Shown here piece by piece: positions 2,477 through 16,188 of a stretch of DNA of 22,185 nt (position 1 is its first letter; the number at the start of each line of letters is the position of its first letter). Both the position numbers and the translations under genes were made by a program. The stretch spans positions 1 through 22,185 of IMG/VR virus record IMGVR_UViG_3300031963_008951, one strand, 5' to 3'. The DNA comes from a virus. A model generated the notes under the pieces. It was not told the DNA's origin and searched no databases. It worked only from the letters and a program-made list of their open reading frames with translations.

Positions 2477-3307
2477 TCAGAAGTCCAGACCTGCTGCTTG
2501 GAGAGCTGCTTTCTGTTCTTCCGTCAGATCCTTTTTGGCAGTTGCCTTTTTGGGAGCCGGCGGTTCCGTGGCCTCAGGCTTAGCTCCTGGTGTTCCGGCG
2601 CCAGCTGGCAGAGCTGACAACCCAGCCGGAGCTGCGCCTTCGAGACGTTTGGGGTTCGCTTCTATAAAGGCTTCTTTAATCGCCCCGTGATCTTCCCCCA
2701 GAGGAAGCTCAACCAGATTCGAACCGGGGATAGAAGAACGTAGTGCAGATGCCACCAGATCTCCTGAGCCAGCGTCAAGCCACGCTGCAATATCCTCGAT
2801 GAGTTTGCGCTCTTCGTCAGTTTGTGCGGGCCGATCTTTGAATTCCAGCGCGTTGTAATTAATCTTGGCTCCATCGGCCCCCGTCATCGGGTCCCTCTCG
2901 TTGAAGGACTTCTGAACGAATTTAGTCGATGTGATTACCTCACCAACGTTAATCCGATTGTTGTAGAGCGTCTGGAAGTAGGAGATAAAGTTCTTTTGAC
3001 TCGATTTACCGCTGATGATGCTAGTACATACGCAGCGTGGAGGAAGCAGACGATGAGAAGGTGTGACACCAATGTAACTAATACGAATAAACTCTTCATG
3101 CGACCGCATACCGAGGTTACCGAAATACGGCGTGAACCCAAGAAGGATGAATTCAATCGGTATACCGTTGTCGTTGGAGTCCGTGATGGCCGCATCAGGG
3201 TCAGTATCGGATTTCCAACGGCGTGCTTGAAGATCGATTCGGAGCGTGTGAGGCGGGATTTGGCAGAGAATTTCATCAGCCGAAAATTTGCCAGCAATAA
3301 AAACCAT
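2477..3307 (-). CDS. Putative single-strand DNA-binding-like protein
   Basis: A 276-residue protein from an ATG at 3307, nine bases after the SSB-like gene. The first 170 residues look beta-rich (PIEFILLGF, then FIRISYIGV). The next part is a low-complexity Ala/Pro/Lys linker (about 220-260), then a short helix and the terminal sequence AAGLDF. This shape, a folded domain plus a disordered tail with a hydrophobic tip, is that of phage ssDNA-binding or recombination-mediator proteins. The neighbour's tail also carries LDF. No family was recognised, so the function is inferred from architecture and context. It is the last gene before the terminator at 2428-2463. Confidence 0.5.
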   Translation of the reverse strand: MVFIAGKFSADEILCQIPPHTLRIDLQARRWKSDTDPDAAITDSNDNGIPIEFILLGFTPYFGNLGMRSHEEFIRISYIGVTPSHRLLPPRCVCTSIISGKSSQKNFISYFQTLYNNRINVGEVITSTKFVQKSFNERDPMTGADGAKINYNALEFKDRPAQTDEERKLIEDIAAWLDAGSGDLVASALRSSIPGSNLVELPLGEDHGAIKEAFIEANPKRLEGAAPAGLSALPAGAGTPGAKPEATEPPAPKKATAKKDLTEEQKAALQAAGLDF

Positions 3308-4949: not shown

Positions 4950-5846
4950 CTACTTATTTTCTATAAAAAACCTCTTAAGGTCAAACCCTGGACCTACCGT
5001 ACCCTTTAGAACACGCATAGTCATTTTAGCTTTTTCGTGACATGTAAAATACATAGCTTTTTCTTTGTTTGATGTGTAGCTTACTAAGTTGCGCCTTTCT
5101 TTATCTAAGCACTCACTTACATACATCGAGTCTTTAATAATTACCCACACTTCTTGGAAACGCAGGAGCGGCATCGCCTTGGTCTCGTCGAGTGTGTACA
5201 GTCTCGACCTTAAGGTTACCTTTTTATTAGTTTTCTTGACTACACATTTTGTAGTTTCTTTTGTCTTTTTTTTGGTTTCTTTACAATCTTGCTCTATCGG
5301 GTTTTCCAATAGCCTCTTGAGGTTTCGTGCTTTGTTAGCTGCCTCTAGTGCACTCGAAAAAACATCAGACGTGAAGCAGATTCCGTTAGTTGTACGGGCA
5401 CAACCGACGTAACCGTTTTCCGTTTTTGCGGTGAATACTTCTTTATCTTCAACGACCTGCAAGTTAAAGATAGTCACAGAAGTTGTCGACTTCTTTTTAC
5501 TTTGCTTGGGGACTACATCTACTTTTATTGGCTTCTCTAGTTCTTGTGCAACGACAGAAGCCTCGTGGACCTTCAAGCGATTCTGTTCGTGTTCAGTCGT
5601 CGATTTCATCCCATCCCACAGGATCGAAGCAAAATGCCTCCTGTCTCCTCTTTTGTTTGTTTTGACAAATACTTCTTTCACTGTCCCTAGCCGCGTGTTG
5701 TTCACGTAGCCAGCAATCTTGTCCTTAAGCTTTTGATCAGAGAACTCACTGTAGCAAGTGATGTTCTTGATACCCAGTGTGACTCGATCACCAATTTTGA
5801 GCTTGCTTGGTGAGAGGGGACGTTCGCGCTTTTTGGTGTTACTCAT
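4950..5846 (-). CDS. Hypothetical Lys-rich protein, possible SH3/KOW-like N-domain
   Basis: A 298-residue protein whose ATG overlaps the polymerase stop as ATGA, so it is co-translated with the polymerase. Residues 15-85 (LKIGDRVTL, then LGTVKEVFVK, then FASILWDG) have the strand pattern of a small SH3/KOW-like barrel. A Lys-rich linker (about 110-122 and 190-215) separates it from a second beta-rich domain that contains several Cys residues. The charge and position suggest a nucleic-acid-binding polymerase accessory protein, but this is inference; no family was recognised. Confidence 0.65.
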   Translation of the reverse strand: MSNTKKRERPLSPSKLKIGDRVTLGIKNITCYSEFSDQKLKDKIAGYVNNTRLGTVKEVFVKTNKRGDRRHFASILWDGMKSTTEHEQNRLKVHEASVVAQELEKPIKVDVVPKQSKKKSTTSVTIFNLQVVEDKEVFTAKTENGYVGCARTTNGICFTSDVFSSALEAANKARNLKRLLENPIEQDCKETKKKTKETTKCVVKKTNKKVTLRSRLYTLDETKAMPLLRFQEVWVIIKDSMYVSECLDKERRNLVSYTSNKEKAMYFTCHEKAKMTMRVLKGTVGPGFDLKRFFIENK

Positions 5847-7732
5847 TTTTCAGACCAGGTTTCTCCGTAACTAGCGTCTGCTTTAGCAGGCACCTCCTTT
5901 AAAATCGTTTCAGCGGCTTCTTTCATACAGCGCTCAAGTACTTCTTTGTAGTACTCAACTTTTGTTTCTACAGCCTCTAAAACGATTTCATCGTGGACAC
6001 AGGCAACTAAATAAGCTTCGTCGCACAGATAAGGATTGAGCTTCGCTAACGACAGCTTAAGGATATCAGCACCGGCACCTTGTATAAGCGTATTGGCACA
6101 GGCAGTCATGGTTGCATCTGAGTACGAAAGCAGACGCCTGCGACCTAACGGAGTTCTCACGAAGGTCCACCCATCTTCGACCATCGCAGCACGCTCCCGG
6201 TGCCACTGCCTTAAACGTGGGTATGCGTTATGGAACGCTGTGTGAGCTACTTTTGCTTCTGATAGAGAAATGATTTTTCCGCTTTGAGCTGCGTACGTTT
6301 TGTACTTACGGAAGCCCATGCCGTATAGCAATGCAAAGTTAAGCGTTTTACCTTCCTGTCGCTGGTTCTTCTGAACCTCTTCTAAAGGTATGTTGTAGAT
6401 CAAACTAGCGGTAACCGTATGGAGATCATGACCTTGTTTAAACGCCTCAATCATCTGAGGGATTCCGATCAGCTCCGCACCGAGGCGTAGCTCAATCTGA
6501 CTGAAGTCACAGATGATCAGCTTGTAGCCAGGCGTGGCTACGAAACATTCCCGAAACTCTTTGTCTCTCGGAATCTGTTGAGCGTTGATCGCAAACTGAC
6601 TTTTAACTTTCTTGGCCGCTGTTTTCTTAGCTCCGCTCGAAGTAAATCTTCCGGAGTTTGCTCCGTACTGGTTATAACCTGAGTGAATTCTGTGTGTTAT
6701 AGGGTTGATATTTGCGATTAGTTTTTCTGCGTGTTCGAGTTGAGTTTCGATTTTTGTGCGCTTTCGATAGAGGTTTAAGAGCGGGTCATCCGAATCAAAT
6801 TCCGCGAGCTGGATCTGATTAAGAGTGCTCTTTCCTGTTCCTGGATTTGTTGGAAGTGCAATGCCAAGTGCTTCGAAACACTTTGTGCATTGGACACCGG
6901 ATCCGGGGTTGAACTCTTTGCGTAAGTTTTTTCCAATTGCCAGTGATCCATCGGTTCTCCTGGGTAGCTTTAGATCCTCTGGTAGAGCGTCGTCAAGCTT
7001 AGTGCAGAATTCTAGAGTAATTTCATCTAACTTTTGCTCGATCGTGTGCTTTAGGGCTATTAGCTTAGTAACATCTACGTTAAATCCTTTGTGACACATC
7101 AGTGCCACGGGGCGTACGCATTTCGACTCCAACGAGTAAACATCAAGCAGAGCTTCTTCTGCTAGCTCTTTAAGTTGATCCGCAGCGATCGTGGGGAGAA
7201 GGTCAACGTCCTTTGCTGCGTATTCGATTTGCTCTATATCAAGATCAGGTTTGCTCCAGTCAGAGATCTGTTGTTCTTTACTAATTTCAATCTCGAGTCG
7301 TCGCTCAACAACAGCCTTCAGTGAGCAGCTAACGTCATCGAAATATGGCTTTTGGAGTTTCGGGCTAACTTTCTTTTCCTTAAAACCAGCCCGCAAACAA
7401 CGCTCAGCTACATAAGTATCGAATACCTTTCCTTGATAGTCGATGCCGAGAGACAGCAGGAACTGAAAATCGAAATTTAAGTTGTGGCCGAGAATCATTT
7501 CCCGGCTTTCGATAAATTCCTTTAGCCCACTGGTATCGGTGATTTTGAACAGATCGAGAACGTATACCGTTCTGTCAATAGTCTCTGTCGTACACAGCTG
7601 AAGCAGTCGAGCTTTAGCCACGTGCGAGTCCAAACCAGTCGTCTCGAAGTCCAGGCATACCTTGGGAATTAGCTGCAGCTCCCCAAGAGCTTTTTGGTAC
7701 TCGCTGTTGCTTGTGATGTAACGGATCTGCAT
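5843..7732 (-). CDS. Family A DNA polymerase with 3'-5' exonuclease domain
   Basis: This 629-residue replicative polymerase has a DnaQ-like proofreading domain: ExoI DFETTG with Asp28 and Glu30, ExoII HNLNFD ending in Asp88, and ExoIII YAAKD with Asp175. The polymerase domain follows: motif A CDFSQIELR with Asp409; O-helix RQEGKTLNFALLYG with Arg458, Lys462, Phe466 and Tyr470; motif C VHDE with Asp581. There is no 5'-nuclease domain, as in phage polymerases. All catalytic residues are present. Phe466 sits where T7 polymerase has Tyr526. The start is ATG at 7732, only about 30 nt after a terminator hairpin, so expression must rely on readthrough or an unseen promoter. It is followed by a coupled accessory gene. 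Confidence 0.95.
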   Translation of the reverse strand: MQIRYITSNSEYQKALGELQLIPKVCLDFETTGLDSHVAKARLLQLCTTETIDRTVYVLDLFKITDTSGLKEFIESREMILGHNLNFDFQFLLSLGIDYQGKVFDTYVAERCLRAGFKEKKVSPKLQKPYFDDVSCSLKAVVERRLEIEISKEQQISDWSKPDLDIEQIEYAAKDVDLLPTIAADQLKELAEEALLDVYSLESKCVRPVALMCHKGFNVDVTKLIALKHTIEQKLDEITLEFCTKLDDALPEDLKLPRRTDGSLAIGKNLRKEFNPGSGVQCTKCFEALGIALPTNPGTGKSTLNQIQLAEFDSDDPLLNLYRKRTKIETQLEHAEKLIANINPITHRIHSGYNQYGANSGRFTSSGAKKTAAKKVKSQFAINAQQIPRDKEFRECFVATPGYKLIICDFSQIELRLGAELIGIPQMIEAFKQGHDLHTVTASLIYNIPLEEVQKNQRQEGKTLNFALLYGMGFRKYKTYAAQSGKIISLSEAKVAHTAFHNAYPRLRQWHRERAAMVEDGWTFVRTPLGRRRLLSYSDATMTACANTLIQGAGADILKLSLAKLNPYLCDEAYLVACVHDEIVLEAVETKVEYYKEVLERCMKEAAETILKEVPAKADASYGETWSEK

Positions 7733-9164: not shown

Positions 9165-10706
9165 TTATCGCATCGCGTCTTGAAACAGTTCGGCACTGCT
9201 TGGGTCGTCTAGAGGATCTACAGTGTGTACATTATCACTGAACTCTTTTAGCACACGGGCCTGTCTGCCTATGCAGAAGCTGTTCCACTGAACACCGTGC
9301 TCTTGTTTGAACGCATTTAGACGGCGCACGAAAGGATCAGATACTTCGGCGTTTCCGTCTGTAATCATCAAGATGTCCGCTTTTTCAACGAAATTGATCT
9401 TTGTCAGCGCGTGGTCGATCACCGAACAGAACGAAGTTCCGCCTTTCGTTGTCCAACTAAGAACAAAGTTCAGAAGTTTTTCGTTGTCGGCTCTGTCTTT
9501 CTCCAGATGAATACTTTTCTGAACCACCGTGTCGAATAGGTGAATGTGTGTTGCCCTGTTTTGCTTCAAGCATTCCTCTGCGATGACATAAGCCATAGCT
9601 TTCGACCAGAGCTCTGACTCACCTGCCATCGATCCGCTGATATCGATGTACATAACAACAGGACCTTTATCAAGCTCTTTGATCTTTGCTTCGTAGTCCT
9701 TAGTGAGTAGAGTCTTTTGGCTGTACTTAAGAGCAAACAAGGCCCGCCCTTGCTCCGTGGCAGCCAGCGCGATCTCAGCTGGGTATGCTTTGATGACTTC
9801 ATCAGAGAATTTCGCTCCAACGATGTCACTGTATTTTGTCTGTGCTTTACGTGCACGCTTCCGATCCGCCCAAGCTTGACGCAGAGCACCTAACTTCCGG
9901 ACCAGTTGCTTGAGGCCAGGGTTTGCACCAAGCCTTCGTGCAAGCTTGCGCTTTTGCTCCAGATCGTTCAGCGCCACACCCTTCCCTGCTTCGGAACCAG
10001 CAAGCTGGCTCATTGCTTCCTGAGTGTCCTTAGCGCTTTGGTGCGCTTTATCAATCGCTTTATCCACTTGTGGTTGGAGAGCTTCACCTGCTCGTTGGAC
10101 AGACTCTTCGAGCTGTTGGCCTAGCTCCTTTCCTTTTTGGCGAAGTTGAGCTGCCTTTGCATTATCCCCTTCTCTTTTAGCGGCCATGAACTGTTCTCGG
10201 ATGTCCTGCAGCTCTTTGCCTGCGTCTGCCAATAGTGCGACGTCAAGAATCCCCTGTTCGATTTGAGATTCGATTACTTCACTCAGCTCATTGAGCACAT
10301 TGACAGCATTGTTTCCTGCAGTGAACTGATCGCCGACCGAGAGACCCATCAACCGTGGCCATGCCGGTGACTCACACACTTGAATGAATAGGTTCACCCA
10401 AAAAGCTGATTCAGGCTTGTAACCCTTTGGGAACTCTGGATTCTGGCCGTTCTGTTTCGCACGAAAGTACGTTTCAGCTTCATCCAGAGTGATGACCGTA
10501 GTGCACTGACCGCCGTTGTACAGGAAGTCGAACAACTCTTTCCCGAAACGAGAGAGCTGTTTGATGTTGTACCGATCCTCCAGATACTTAACGATCGGCC
10601 GAGTGTCCCGAACAAAGTCATCCCACAGGAAGTCCGACAGTGGAGAAACAGCAAGAACCAAAGGTTCGTTGTTTATCAGGCGGAGGAACTCGGTGTTTGT
10701 TTTCAT
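9165..10706 (-). CDS. ViaA-like VWA-domain protein
   Basis: A 513-residue protein whose ATG overlaps the stop of the AAA+ gene as ATGA. The N-terminal third is unknown and helical; 160-290 is a charged coiled coil. From about 300 the sequence matches the ViaA pattern: PAEIALAA, then KGPVVMYIDISGSMAG, then E.W.KAMAYVIAEE. The VWA MIDAS is complete: D355-x-S357-x-S359, Thr424 in KGGTS, Asp450 in ITDG. VWA partners of MoxR/RavA ATPases bind targets or substrates in a metal-dependent way. Together with the next gene upstream it forms a RavA-ViaA-like pair. In E. coli that pair is linked to aminoglycoside sensitivity and respiratory complexes; the phage role is unknown. Confidence 0.85.
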   Translation of the reverse strand: MKTNTEFLRLINNEPLVLAVSPLSDFLWDDFVRDTRPIVKYLEDRYNIKQLSRFGKELFDFLYNGGQCTTVITLDEAETYFRAKQNGQNPEFPKGYKPESAFWVNLFIQVCESPAWPRLMGLSVGDQFTAGNNAVNVLNELSEVIESQIEQGILDVALLADAGKELQDIREQFMAAKREGDNAKAAQLRQKGKELGQQLEESVQRAGEALQPQVDKAIDKAHQSAKDTQEAMSQLAGSEAGKGVALNDLEQKRKLARRLGANPGLKQLVRKLGALRQAWADRKRARKAQTKYSDIVGAKFSDEVIKAYPAEIALAATEQGRALFALKYSQKTLLTKDYEAKIKELDKGPVVMYIDISGSMAGESELWSKAMAYVIAEECLKQNRATHIHLFDTVVQKSIHLEKDRADNEKLLNFVLSWTTKGGTSFCSVIDHALTKINFVEKADILMITDGNAEVSDPFVRRLNAFKQEHGVQWNSFCIGRQARVLKEFSDNVHTVDPLDDPSSAELFQDAMR

Positions 10707-11887
10707 GAGGAGAGGTTCGAGATGGATGTAGCTACAGATTGAGAGGAGGATTCGATTGCTTGGGCGAGTTTGGTAGCAGTTTGTCTAGCACCTGCACTGA
10801 TTCGATACTGACCTGATTCTAAGATGTTGTCTAGTTTGTTAGAGAGTGTATCCAGATCACGGTGCATCTTTCGCAGCTTACCTACCAGCCGGTTTAGATC
10901 CTCTACGCTTTTAGATTCCTGTGAGTGAACCGCGTGGTATTCCGTCAGGATTCCACTGTGAGCACGCTTGATACTCTCCAGGAGACGTTCTGCTGTAGGT
11001 ACTGCTTGCTCTAGAACTTCCTTGATAACTTGTACATCATCTTGTGTTTGATACACAATGTGCACTAAGGATCTGTGCAGGTGCTCTGGATAGAGTTCTT
11101 CATCTCCTTGCACAAGCGCCCAACCACGCAAGAACTTAAGAATCTGAACTCGGCGGCGATCGCTGATAGTGATTCCCCGCGTAGCCAGAAGGTCAATTAC
11201 TTGCGAGAAGGAATCAAGAAACTCATCGCTAGCTTTGATTGATACAACCTCTTGTTGTAACTGTTGAAGATCTTCGAAAGTTAGATCTGACTTAACGGTC
11301 GGTCTGTCCTTGAGACCGAGGGCCCATGCGTCAAGCGTGCGCTTCGATGTGGGTTTCTTGAGAAGATCTACTGTAGGTCTAAACAAGAATCGATCACAGA
11401 AGGCTTGAAGAGATTCCTCTTGAGGGAAGCTGTTCGTAGCAGCAACGATTGATTGAATCGGAGTTTCGATTACTTCGCGACCGTTGTTGAAGATACGCTC
11501 GTTGAGAATAGTCAGGAGAGAGTTAAGTACAGCAGAGCTGCCACGGAACAGCTCATCTAAGAATGCAATGTTGGCACTGGGTAAGTATCCAGAGACATCA
11601 CGTACATACTCGTCTTTCAGGAGCTTCGAAACTGCCACCGGGCCGAATAGTTCACTTGGGTCCGTTGTGGGCGAGAGCAGGTAACCAAAGAACTGAGATC
11701 CTTTGAATCCGTTCGAAACAGCCCGTACCAATTCGGATTTACCCGTACCAGGCAATCCAAACAAGAAGCAATTTTGTTTAGTGATAAGTGAAGCCAGAAG
11801 TCCGTCGACAATGTCTTCACGTTCCAGGAAGCTGGTGTTGAGCGAAGAGCGGAAGCCTTGGAGGTTTGCAAAGAGAGTGTCGTTCAT
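10703..11887 (-). CDS. RavA/MoxR-type AAA+ ATPase
   Basis: A 394-residue AAA+ protein with Walker A GLPGTGKS (44-51), a MoxR-type insert (GYLPSANIAFLDELFRG) with Walker B Asp111/Glu112, the helix LNSLLTILNERIF, and sensor 1 Asn152 in VAATN. These are hallmarks of the MoxR clade, nearest to RavA. The C-terminal 130 residues are helical and coiled-coil rich and replace the usual RavA LARA domain. MoxR ATPases act as chaperones or remodellers with a VWA partner, here the adjacent ViaA-like gene. Its ATG shares one base with the TGA of the 46-residue gene (TGATG), so the two are translationally coupled. Confidence 0.92.
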   Translation of the reverse strand: MNDTLFANLQGFRSSLNTSFLEREDIVDGLLASLITKQNCFLFGLPGTGKSELVRAVSNGFKGSQFFGYLLSPTTDPSELFGPVAVSKLLKDEYVRDVSGYLPSANIAFLDELFRGSSAVLNSLLTILNERIFNNGREVIETPIQSIVAATNSFPQEESLQAFCDRFLFRPTVDLLKKPTSKRTLDAWALGLKDRPTVKSDLTFEDLQQLQQEVVSIKASDEFLDSFSQVIDLLATRGITISDRRRVQILKFLRGWALVQGDEELYPEHLHRSLVHIVYQTQDDVQVIKEVLEQAVPTAERLLESIKRAHSGILTEYHAVHSQESKSVEDLNRLVGKLRKMHRDLDTLSNKLDNILESGQYRISAGARQTATKLAQAIESSSQSVATSISNLSS

Positions 11888-12027
11888 CAGTCGAAGATTT
11901 TGTAAAGGGTCTCGGCGAGAGCCTTGAAGAAGTTTTTCTTACGCGTGTCGCGGTAAGGTCCACTCAAGCTTTTCGTTGCTAGCAGCAGAACGATTGCTTT
12001 TTGATCCAGATTAGAAGTCAAGTTCAT
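11887..12027 (-). CDS. 46-residue microprotein inside the AAA+/VWA operon
   Basis: A short frame from an ATG at 12027 to TGA at 11887. It overlaps the end of the coiled-coil gene by 17 nt and the start of the AAA+ gene by one base, so it fills the gap between them exactly. The product has a helical hydrophobic segment (KAIVLLLATKSL), then a basic stretch (RDTRKKNFFKALAE). It may be a regulatory or adaptor subunit of the AAA+/VWA complex (inference from context). The tight packing on both sides is the main evidence that it is real. Confidence 0.65.
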   Translation of the reverse strand: MNLTSNLDQKAIVLLLATKSLSGPYRDTRKKNFFKALAETLYKIFD

Positions 12028-13228
12028 CAGTGGTTTCTGCTTCAATAGTTTTTACCTCGTCGATCAGATCATCCAGGTTTGCTGATTGAGCTTTCACTAG
12101 CTCAGTTCGTTGATCGAACAGAATTTGTAGATGCTTAGCTCGTTGTTGGTAGACATCTTTTTCTACTTGAAGTTCCTGATGGAGTTCATCTAATTGCTCT
12201 TGTGTTTCTGCTGTGTTTATCTTCGTGAGTAGGTCACGATAAGTATTAGAAAGAGCCAGCGATTTCTTCAGGGACTCAAGTCCGTCGCTGGAGTTTCGAG
12301 AGCTGACGATTGCTTCGAGTTCATTACGAATCTTGCCCTTCAGATCCGCATACTCTTTAAAGGCTTGGTTCTTTACCTTTGCAGAATCACTCTGAAGCCT
12401 TACACCTACATCGAGTAAATCTTCCGAAAGTTTGAACAGATCTTCGAAACCTGGGCAGTGTCTAGTAATCAGCTGCAGCGTTTCCGCTGTGATCTGCCAC
12501 GAACCGCGCCGCCGAGCTCCGCCGGTTTGGCGCTCACCAACCTTAGATGAGACTCGAACGTCTAGGTCATCGAGAAGTTCGGCTGCTTTGGCCAATGCCC
12601 GATCAGCAGCACCTTCACGGGCAGCCTCAAGAACTTCGTTTGTGTTGAACAGAGCGGCTTCCTGAATCGCTGTGGAAATAGAGTGCTCCTCTTTGTTTTC
12701 AGAAACAACCAAGCTGACTGGGTTTGGTCCGACCACAAAGACTCTGATTGGATTCTCGAACTCCTGCTTGGTAGGGAAGATAGTTAAGTAAGCTTCTTTA
12801 GCTAGCTTGAAACCTTCGGGGTCATCACGGAACAACGGCTCAAGAAAGCCTTCAACTGTGTTCGACCAGCGAGTGTATTCTTCCAGCCAAAGTTCGTTCA
12901 GCTGTTCGTTGTACTTCGCAGCGTCAGAACGAATCTTGGCGATTCGCTCCATAGCTTCTTCAAAGTAGTCCTCGTGGAGGAAGTGAACGTCACCGTTGTG
13001 AATTGTGCACTCGTCGTACAACTTACGTTGTTCGATCCTCAGAAGATTAAGGAACTCCTTCAATCTCCCAGAGAGCGTAGGACGCACTGAGACTGATTGT
13101 TGTTTCTCGAGTACGTCGATAACAGCACCAGGCAGTTGAAGGTCTGCCATCTTTATCTGAGTGCTCTGTCGAACAGAGGCACTCACAGAGCAGTGAATCA
13201 GGAAGATCTTTTCGTTATTCACGATCAC
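12011..13228 (-). CDS. Coiled-coil protein of the AAA+/VWA operon
   Basis: A 405-residue protein. The start is taken as GTG at 13228, which overlaps the upstream TGA as GTGA; an ATG 26 codons later (MADLQLP) is an alternative. A helical N-terminal third is followed by a short beta segment (IRVFVVGPNPVSLVV, about 160-175) and a long coiled coil from about 260 to 395 (LHQELQVEKDVYQQR and similar). It ends in TTDELDF, a terminal LDF also found on the SSB-like gene's neighbour. It is probably a scaffold or substrate adaptor for the AAA+/VWA pair, judging only from gene order. No enzyme motif or family was recognised. Confidence 0.7.
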   Translation of the reverse strand: MIVNNEKIFLIHCSVSASVRQSTQIKMADLQLPGAVIDVLEKQQSVSVRPTLSGRLKEFLNLLRIEQRKLYDECTIHNGDVHFLHEDYFEEAMERIAKIRSDAAKYNEQLNELWLEEYTRWSNTVEGFLEPLFRDDPEGFKLAKEAYLTIFPTKQEFENPIRVFVVGPNPVSLVVSENKEEHSISTAIQEAALFNTNEVLEAAREGAADRALAKAAELLDDLDVRVSSKVGERQTGGARRRGSWQITAETLQLITRHCPGFEDLFKLSEDLLDVGVRLQSDSAKVKNQAFKEYADLKGKIRNELEAIVSSRNSSDGLESLKKSLALSNTYRDLLTKINTAETQEQLDELHQELQVEKDVYQQRAKHLQILFDQRTELVKAQSANLDDLIDEVKTIEAETTDELDF

Positions 13229-13650
13229 TTAAGACGACGGAAGACTGCGGTGATTTTGTCAGTGACCAGATCGACTGCCCCAGTCAAGTTGAGTTGCTTA
13301 ATCAAGCTGTCGCGTTCGATCTTCGCCAGCTTCAGCTTGCGCTCTAGGTCTGCGATCTTGTCGTTGATCTTGTCAAGTTTGATGTGAGGCGAGGGGCTCC
13401 GGTCGATACGTACAACGATGTTCGTACGGAACTCAGGGAACTTAAACAGGGAGTCGTCGCCCTTGAAGACGGACAGATCCAACCCGAAGTGATCCGCGTG
13501 GCAGAGCATGGTTGTGAGGTTGCTCCGAGCAGCTTCGTACTCTGTCCCGAAACTTCCGTTCAGCTCGGCCAGGGCGTTGTCGCACGCGTCGTAACGCTCT
13601 GCACTGATGCGCCCCTGTTCGACCAGGGATTGTGTAGTGACCTTAGTCAT
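13225..13650 (-). CDS. Coiled-coil protein, first gene of the AAA+/VWA operon
   Basis: A 141-residue protein from an ATG at 13650, about 50 nt downstream of the predicted transcription start. The N-terminal 90 residues look globular (FGTEYEAARSNLTTMLCHAD, then FRTNIVVRIDRS). Residues 91-120 are a coiled coil with a Lys/Asp/Glu pattern (INDKIADLERKLKLAK), and the end is basic (FRRLK). Its stop overlaps the next start. The protein may pair with the 405-residue coiled-coil partner. No family was recognised. Confidence 0.75.
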   Translation of the reverse strand: MTKVTTQSLVEQGRISAERYDACDNALAELNGSFGTEYEAARSNLTTMLCHADHFGLDLSVFKGDDSLFKFPEFRTNIVVRIDRSPSPHIKLDKINDKIADLERKLKLAKIERDSLIKQLNLTGAVDLVTDKITAVFRRLK

Positions 13651-13707
13651 TTGATGTGATTCGAAGGAGGCGCACCACGTTTAGGGCCGGTGCCGCCCAT
13701 GCAGAGC

Positions 13708-15327: not shown

Positions 15328-15445
15328 CTGGGCATTGCATCGAATCCGTTTTTGCCACTGTTCCTCCTCGCATCACAGCACTCAACAAAACTGAAGCAGA
15401 GAAGATTAGGGCGAAGATCTGCAGTTTCTGGTAAGTGGTGCGCAT
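15287..15445 (-). CDS. Exported 52-residue protein
   Basis: The ATG at 15445 shares a base with the TGA of the L,D-transpeptidase gene (TGATG), so the two genes are coupled. Residues 1-24 are a signal peptide or membrane anchor (QIFALIFSASVLLSAVM). The mature part has two Cys (SMQCPVAPNGK, then GPGC at the end), possibly a disulfide. It is probably a periplasmic partner of the transpeptidase (inference from coupling). An overlapping frame beginning at 15458 was rejected because it has no signal and no coupling. Confidence 0.65.
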   Translation of the reverse strand: MRTTYQKLQIFALIFSASVLLSAVMRGGTVAKTDSMQCPVAPNGKLHYGPGC

Positions 15446-16188
15446 CACGATTGAACAATGAGTTTGGATACGTTGAAGTGCTTGATCCACGTCACGAGCT
15501 TTACAGTTGCGTCGACGTTCTCAAGACCGATGCAGCCGCTAGTGCCTGACTCTCCGTTGAGTTTGCCCCAGGAAGGGTCAACGTGAAAGCCAAGATCGGA
15601 TCGCCCTGTGGCGAACATAGGTGTGATCGGCACCCAATAGCCGCTACCTAGTTCGGGATCGCTGAAGGGTCCGCTTTCGATTCCTGCTCGCTCAATCCGG
15701 TAAGTTCCGACAGGCAGAGGGGCCTTTGTGCCAGCGATGTGACGATTAACTGCTTGTCGGGACGCTCTACCCGTCACAGCCTGCAGGCTATCTAGGACAG
15801 TTCCATCCTTACTGATCAGCTGGAGTGTCCAAATAGGATCTTTAGTTGATTTGATCGACTGCGATGATTTTTTAAGTACAAGGAACGGTGCGTTAGATAG
15901 TGGAGGAAGTGCTGGAGGTTGATTCGTGAACTGTATGGAGGGGCGTAAAGATCCTGGTTCGTTTTGGTAGCCTGGCTCAGGTGTAGCGTCCAGAGGTAAC
16001 CCACCATCAGGATAAGTTCGAGCCGGATCGTTGCCCAACTCTAAGGGTTGTTCCATGGCGAGCAGCATCTGTTGGTGATACTCGCTGACTTCCCCTCTTG
16101 ATTCAAAAAACTTTTGACCTTGATGGATGCCGAGAGCTAGTACAACGCCACCGACTGAACCAATTAAAGCGTACATTTTGAGTTTCAT
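15445..16188 (-). CDS. Membrane-anchored YkuD-type L,D-transpeptidase
   Basis: A 247-residue protein. Residues 4-22 form an N-terminal membrane anchor, followed by a Pro-rich periplasmic linker (50-105) and a catalytic domain. The domain ends in GFHVDPSWGKLNG...SGTSGCIGL with His202 and Cys219, the HxxD...SxGC signature of the YkuD family, which makes or edits 3-3 peptidoglycan cross-links or attaches lipoproteins. Here the third-position His of classical SHGC is replaced by Gly's neighbour Ser (TSGC). Encoded early among exported proteins, it may remodel the host wall rather than lyse it. Start ATG at 16188. Confidence 0.82.
   Translation of the reverse strand: MKLKMYALIGSVGGVVLALGIHQGQKFFESRGEVSEYHQQMLLAMEQPLELGNDPARTYPDGGLPLDATPEPGYQNEPGSLRPSIQFTNQPPALPPLSNAPFLVLKKSSQSIKSTKDPIWTLQLISKDGTVLDSLQAVTGRASRQAVNRHIAGTKAPLPVGTYRIERAGIESGPFSDPELGSGYWVPITPMFATGRSDLGFHVDPSWGKLNGESGTSGCIGLENVDATVKLVTWIKHFNVSKLIVQS

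Follow-up and report, generated by a model that had tools for sequence, protein, structure and literature searches.

What does a phage do with a MoxR-type ATPase and its cochaperone when it keeps them beside its DNA polymerase gene? The question is raised by a stretch of 22,185 nucleotides (nt) from the viral record IMGVR_UViG_3300031963_008951, the whole of which will be referred to as the window. According to its list of open reading frames (ORFs), the window carries on the minus strand, between positions 9165 and 13650, a core operon of four genes in the order cc1-cc2-AAA-VWA, with a micro-ORF between cc2 and AAA. The AAA and VWA genes encode a pair resembling RavA and ViaA, and the products of cc1 and cc2 belong to no recognised sequence family. 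Our preferred reading, to which we assign a probability of roughly 45%, is that the operon encodes a dedicated ATP-driven remodelling machine of the replication region which would act early, with cc2 as adaptor or client, perhaps docked through its C-terminal tail.

The operon begins with cc1 (13225-13650, 141 amino acids (aa)), which is followed by cc2 (12011-13228, 405 aa), the AAA gene (10703-11887, 394 aa) and the VWA gene (9165-10706, 513 aa). The micro-ORF at 11887-12027 specifies a product of 46 aa with the ATG at 12027 as start codon, or of 52 aa with the TTG at 12045, and overlaps cc2 in the window. The tight junctions GTGA, TGATG and ATGA are present as described in the first-pass annotation, which had been made from the sequence alone. 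Short overlaps or gaps are also found at the cc1/cc2 and AAA/VWA junctions in most relatives compared, and several close relatives offer an alternative ATG two codons downstream of the cc2 start.

By sequence, the AAA protein is a MoxR AAA+ ATPase of the RavA/bpMoxR group. It passes the Pfam model bpMoxR (E 7.5e-57; 192.2 bits, cut-off 27), matches phrog_19600 in PHROGs (E 4.1e-71) and RavA in the PDB (E 8e-36), and its core is 34% identical to Escherichia coli RavA over 261 aligned positions. The RavA equivalog NF010054 is matched with E 5.9e-39 but at 134.5 bits, below the cut-off of 681, residues 13-298 aligning to positions 15-304 of a model of 498. The RavA C-terminal half with the LARA domain (limits according to passages of PMC4124505) is unmatched by the phage protein both in this model and in the alignment with E. 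coli RavA. A scan of cellular genomes with two short peptide patterns yielded no relative of the ATPase.

The VWA protein matches phrog_24053 (E 4.6e-30) and remains below the cut-offs of the ViaA equivalog NF008230 (E 1.6e-16; 60.6 bits versus 500) and, just barely, of Pfam VWA_CoxE (26.1 versus 26.4 bits). Its VWA part resembles solved VWA domains, including those of NorQD and the metal ion-dependent adhesion site (MIDAS) domain of human MDN1. A predicted model of modest confidence (predicted local distance difference test, pLDDT, 66) suggests a helical N-terminal part, a long helix and a C-terminal VWA domain. With a C-terminal VWA domain, a complete MIDAS, a helical N-terminus and a gene adjoining that of a MoxR protein, it qualifies as a ViaA-type cochaperone. 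An alignment of 16 chosen relatives demonstrated that the Walker A residues (G44, P46-S51), Walker B D111/E112, N152, R166 and R170 of the ATPase are invariant, as are the MIDAS residues D355-x-S357-x-S359, T424 and D450 of the VWA protein; the motif names are those which we take these residues to bear. The first-pass annotation had proposed a RavA-ViaA-type pair in a phage with catalytic and MIDAS residues intact in both enzymes, and this is borne out by the invariant residues, the matches to RavA, ViaA and bpMoxR models and the conserved gene order. Salmonella, Campylobacter and Escherichia records matching RavA/ViaA were left out, as they resemble host DNA.

Linkage of the four genes was evaluated in viral loci detected with a cc2 profile. 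Out of 65 loci, 61 carry cc1-cc2-AAA-VWA in the same order on one strand (the VWA gene is incomplete in two, L061 and L097), and the remaining four are cut off by the end of the record within the operon. A profile of the ATPase, whose loci overlap the cc2 set, retrieved 63 loci, 55 with all four genes and eight stopping inside the operon. With dozens of viral loci sharing one gene order, the linkage exceeds chance; cc1 and cc2 are linked to the pair, as had been proposed, and in these loci the AAA+ gene does not occur alone. As an independent control, we anchored a search on the family A DNA polymerase gene (5843-7732, minus strand; recognised by Pfam and PHROGs), which lies downstream of the operon. 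The best 80 of 82 matches represented 79 loci, reduced to 71 by leaving out eight weak and unrelated ones (L168-L175). Upstream sequence of 6.5 kb or more was available for 29 polymerase loci, and every one of them carries all four genes; of 44 loci with 2.5 kb or more, 43 have the VWA gene. The exception is L120, in which the place upstream of the polymerase expected for the VWA gene (positions 1-1818) is taken by an oppositely oriented ORF of 606 aa.

The operon is preceded by a promoter-like site (TTGACA, 17 nt, TACATT) at 13736-13708 on the minus strand. Neither the first box, TTGACA, nor parts of the second show any variation among the 12 relatives selected for alignment. A scan of the region gave two promoter-like sites compared to a mean of 4.6 in shuffled sequences, fewer than shuffled, so that conservation and not the sequence match is the evidence for a promoter. 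The earlier claim that one promoter serves the operon agrees with this conserved site upstream of cc1. The leader from the promoter to the start of cc1 (13651-13705, minus strand) is GC-rich and conserved (GGGCGGCACC...GGTGCG). It folds into a hairpin before cc1, though no better than shuffled sequences do (z-score -0.17).

The position of the operon became apparent from a viral contig of 85,268 bases (G001; loci L208-L212), to which the window is identical (22,185/22,185 bases) at positions 50,277-72,461. The contig is probably complete, because it has an exact 114-base terminal repeat. Analysis of 20 larger proteins (19 from G001, one from the window) with PHROGs recognised a terminase, a portal-like protein, a major head protein, a tail-fibre/collar protein, an endolysin and a primase. 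The recognised head and tail genes are located on the plus strand of G001 at about 2-35 kb, and the primase, the polymerase and the operon on the minus strand at about 48-64 kb. The nearest isolate found was Synechococcus phage S-EIV1 (69% for the head protein, about 53% for the terminase and 47% for the portal-like protein), which is matched by 22 of the 138 ORFs of G001 at E 1e-4. A cyanobacterial host is likely, judging indirectly from this sequence kinship.

Neither cc1 nor cc2 matched a Pfam family above the cut-off, and PHROGs and NCBIfam returned nothing of weight. Weak matches to LemA, Takusan, XhlA and similar families fell below the cut-off and are probably helical noise, and a PDB match of cc1 to Tako8 (E 1.1e-4) was set aside because none of its individual stretches was significant by itself. 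Both proteins had been described as coiled-coil proteins in the first-pass annotation. For cc2, a predicted model of moderate confidence (pLDDT 77, predicted template modelling score 0.54) supports the helical character, but two long strands at residues 7-17 and 161-172 indicate that it is not plainly a coiled coil. Comparison of this model with viral models using Foldseek yielded six neighbours with probabilities of 0.97-1.00, E values of 2e-4 to 5e-3 and template modelling (TM) scores of 0.21-0.34; from the seventh on, the probability was below 0.4. The top neighbour is a DUF3150 protein (probability 1.00, TM 0.25/0.34), and the other five are unnamed or uncharacterised. Among solved structures in the PDB none resembled cc2 (best E 0.15). 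An assignment of cc2 to DUF3150 (PF11348) was rejected at the sequence level, with no match in eight records, six of them from the lineage, nor in 4, 2 and 42 further records; outside the lineage these negatives are weak, as one named control genome gave a match below the cut-off in three scans and no control gave one in the 42-record scan. An expectation that DUF3150 genes stand beside MoxR-VWA genes was not confirmed. Relatives of cc2 were found neither among named phages nor among cellular genomes, the latter having been scanned with two short peptide patterns.

A conserved trait of cc2 is its end, encoded in the window by the DELDF codons at 12014-12028 (minus strand). Counted without a profile-end filter, F is the last residue of every one of 69 unique C-termini, preceded by D in 67, and 58 have D or E at position -4; when only proteins whose profile match reaches the end are considered, the numbers are 56/56 for F, 54 for DF and 51 for an acidic residue at -4. 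These termini are related by kinship and do not represent 69 independent events, but identity to the cc2 of the window goes down to 42%. Most residues ahead of the tail are variable. The tail recalls those of single-stranded DNA-binding proteins (SSBs), and the annotated SSB of S-EIV1 ends in DEPF. A 276-aa protein of the replication region (2477-3307, minus strand) has no PHROGs match; the idea that it shares the DF tail with cc2 was rejected, as only 19 of its 47 unique homologues end in DF.

To place the operon among other phage loci, a mixed viral MoxR profile was used, and the best 80 of 123 viral loci were surveyed, 33 with and 47 without cc2; the counts that follow refer to these 47. 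The ATPase gene is accompanied by a VWA gene within 2 kb on the same strand in 46 of them, and the other locus, L278, ends soon after the ATPase. A homologue of the DUF6744 protein of Moorella phage MTATph1 was detected in 40 (in 38 within 2 kb on the same strand), or in 37 of 44 without three copy or near-copy loci, and in one of the remaining seven (L280) it lies just past the stretch examined. The profile behind these counts was built from the Moorella protein and 19 proteins taken from the neighbour lists of 33 of the loci, and was then run on all 47; all 18 aligned members of this third-protein family match Pfam DUF6744 (PF20529). Many of these proteins, encoded in the non-lineage loci L228-L307 (e.g., L228:4982-5872), contain a GGxYFVP-like stretch. 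Judged by sequence, phage MoxR-VWA pairs thus often have a third protein. In the lineage studied here, DUF6744 was found neither in the 33 loci with cc2 nor in any of 11 records (G000-G010, G000 being the window and hence part of G001), and the controls, Moorella phage, G013 and G043, were positive. Here cc1 and cc2 may hold the place of DUF6744, either by replacement or by divergence beyond detection. The loci of the Moorella phage type are like the present operon in combining the pair with a third protein in one neighbourhood, and differ in that this third protein is not detectably related to cc2.

In a FastTree phylogeny of 71 AAA proteins the lineage formed one clade (19/19 included, support 1.0). 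Its sister group (0.989) consists of Aphanizomenon phage vB_AphaS-CL131 and contig L305, the next deeper nodes being less supported. Like the present phage, CL131 is a cyanophage whose MoxR-VWA pair adjoins a replication gene, the beta clamp following directly after VWA; in L305 the clamp follows after about 2.3 kb. CL131 differs in its upstream gene with an LPD29 domain and in having no cc2 match, and neither CL131 nor L305 encodes DUF6744. A viral scan with the CL131 ATPase detected no relative.

We suggest the following mode of action. The AAA+ protein would form a ring of the RavA/MoxR type, as in its family, and the VWA protein, as its ViaA-type cochaperone, would use its metal site to transmit the movement of the ring to a bound client. 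The latter step is modelled on NorQ/NorD, for which passages of PMC9976466 report that client activation requires the MIDAS whereas binding to the ring does not, and that acidic residues of the client are its likely ligands. As constant partners within the lineage, cc1 and cc2 might belong to the same complex, cc2 being either an adaptor or the client itself, and its Phe-terminal, mostly acidic tail could act as a docking peptide, supplying an acidic ligand to the metal site of the VWA protein or an end to be gripped by the ring. Early action appears most probable, given a separate promoter-like site for the operon and its location in a region of replication and nucleotide metabolism, next to the polymerase gene and distant from the recognised structural genes; the target, presumably phage or host complexes of the replication stage, is a guess.

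Several observations weigh against this proposal. An unfiltered profile search detected none of the four operon proteins in S-EIV1 (best E 0.12), and L120 may derive from a phage without the operon, although the contig is too short to separate loss from rearrangement. The tail of cc2 resembles SSB tails as much as it does a MIDAS ligand, and both interpretations are hypotheses drawn by analogy. No homology linked cc2 to DUF6744, the hhalign probability being 0.3% with one sequence and 2% with deep alignments, in comparison to 100% for two halves of the DUF6744 set used as positive control. A general tie of phage MoxR-VWA pairs to replication genes, which had been expected from CL131 and a fecal scaffold (the fecal scaffolds, MT83xxxx, are marked UNVERIFIED), failed: PolA was present in 6 and the clamp in 3 of 42 contigs, and by our own reading of the coordinates one or the other lies within about 6 kb of the ATPase gene in 4 of 42. 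These counts omit L231, L239, L253, L258 and L278, and many of the contigs may be fragments.

A broader and rather improbable extension of the remodelling proposal would be that the MoxR-VWA machines of tailed phages form a class specific to viruses, each working with its own partner (often DUF6744, here cc1-cc2), and that in the cyanophage branch the machine is part of the replication apparatus, the SSB-like tail of cc2 docking the ring onto replisome components, which would then be remodelled. If true, a MoxR-VWA ring would remodel the replisome, a task that in other systems falls to clamp loaders or host chaperones. Only a few viral MoxR-VWA pairs have been described, with little mechanism. 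Here the pair is kept, in all testable polymerase loci but one, with two partners lacking a family, one of which has an invariant docking-like tail, and the ATPase, the cochaperone, the candidate adaptor and the peptide form a small testable set for the question of how such pairs choose their clients.

The main rival, which we nevertheless consider unlikely, is a chaperone for virion assembly whose substrate would be a structural protein, for instance of the tail or portal, to be folded or remodelled. Precedents come from archaeal spindle-shaped viruses and from jumbo phages. According to passages of PMC4124505, ATV and SMV1 also encode a MoxR AAA+ protein, which our own search hit as well, with a VWA partner and further partners; p618 of ATV is a major virion component that binds the VWA protein p892 as well as three proteins of the virion, from which its authors concluded that it acts in tail development. 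For the MoxR-vWA chaperone-cochaperone pair of group 2.2 jumbo phages, virion assembly was proposed in passages of PMC7824862; there, in contrast to the present protein, which has no such Pfam match, the VWA domain is fused to a metallopeptidase. In ATV and SMV1 several of the partners are virion proteins. The operon described here lies in the replication region behind a promoter-like site of its own, on the strand opposite to the recognised head and tail genes, which makes assembly less likely than in ATV. Moreover, S-EIV1 possesses the terminase, portal-like and major head proteins of the lineage without the operon. Similarly doubtful is a machine for host takeover or counter-defence, by which a host complex of the membrane, of transcription (RNA polymerase) or of defence would be taken apart or put to another use, with cc1 and cc2 as target-specific adaptors. 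It would account for the occurrence of cc2 in this viral lineage only, within the limits of the scans, and for a slot between cc2 and AAA that differs between sub-clades, and conflict systems predicted in bacteria are built on MoxR-vWA cores (passages of PMC7159879). Those ternary systems share with the operon a MoxR protein, a VWA protein and a third component, and bpMoxR is the best Pfam match here; yet VMAP, iSTAND, FtsH and beta-propeller components were absent from the 10 window proteins scanned with Pfam, PADLOC matches were weak (best E 0.0011), and retention of the four genes in all 29 testable polymerase loci is more core-like than expected of an accessory anti-defence set.

Two further explanations draw on the cellular relatives of the pair. 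Metal insertion or maturation of a phage or host enzyme in the manner of NorQ/NorD is a known role of a MoxR/VWA pair (passages of PMC9976466), and the near-threshold VWA_CoxE match points in this direction; with an ATPase nearest to the RavA and bpMoxR models and no metalloenzyme gene recognised in the operon by Pfam, we regard it as quite improbable. Still more remote, and already disfavoured, is a host RavA-ViaA pair simply captured by the phage, with respiration or membranes as its field of action, the role that the first-pass annotation had given for the host pair. E. coli RavA-ViaA and the phage proteins have in common the AAA core, with the identity given above, the ViaA-type VWA protein and the order AAA-then-VWA. 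The phage ATPase, however, lacks a match to the LARA-containing half of RavA, which leaves a respiratory role unsupported, its lineage forms a single clade next to a cyanophage and a viral contig, and the phage pair adjoins a DNA polymerase gene and is linked in the loci tested to two extra constant genes.

Viral MoxR-VWA pairs as such are already known; the cc1/cc2 partner set is new. Cyanophage S-CREM1 also carries a MoxR gene, which passages of PMC9964418 assign to the CGN subfamily and not to RavA, without mention there of a VWA partner. Neither a set of the cc1/cc2 type nor DUF6744 is described in the available passages of PMC7159879, PMC4124505, PMC6293099, PMC9976466, PMC7824862, PMC9964418 and PMC9489729, and among the papers available for searching none contains the name DUF6744 and none was found that treats DUF3150 together with phages.

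The first-pass annotation had treated five genes as the unit. This did not hold for the micro-protein, which is accessory and outside the core, because its slot is empty or otherwise filled in other sub-clades: there, the interval between cc2 and AAA measures 2-38 bases, or 93 without such an ORF, or is filled by an ORF of 75-79 aa or by two ORFs of 73 and 218 aa. Differing small ORFs by sub-clade were observed in this interval, and in some also between AAA and VWA (window 11887-12045; L016:7216-7455; L071:9176-10040 and 11303-11479). Nevertheless, the micro-protein seems to be under purifying selection and is apparently a real gene, to judge from a simple count of nonsynonymous to synonymous changes (dN/dS), which for two pairs of moderate divergence gave 0.10 and 0.17. 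Near-identical pairs gave 0.07, 0.27 and 0.58 with few changes, and distant pairs, which were compared unaligned, were excluded.

Outside the operon, PHROGs recognised a glycosyltransferase and a Nol-like carbamoyltransferase on G001. A 247-aa protein encoded at 15445-16188 of the window (minus strand) has no PHROGs match and is present in only some relatives, as analysed by tblastn. It has a hydrophobic N-terminal stretch and a stretch SGTSGCIGL, which we take to be reminiscent of L,D-transpeptidases.

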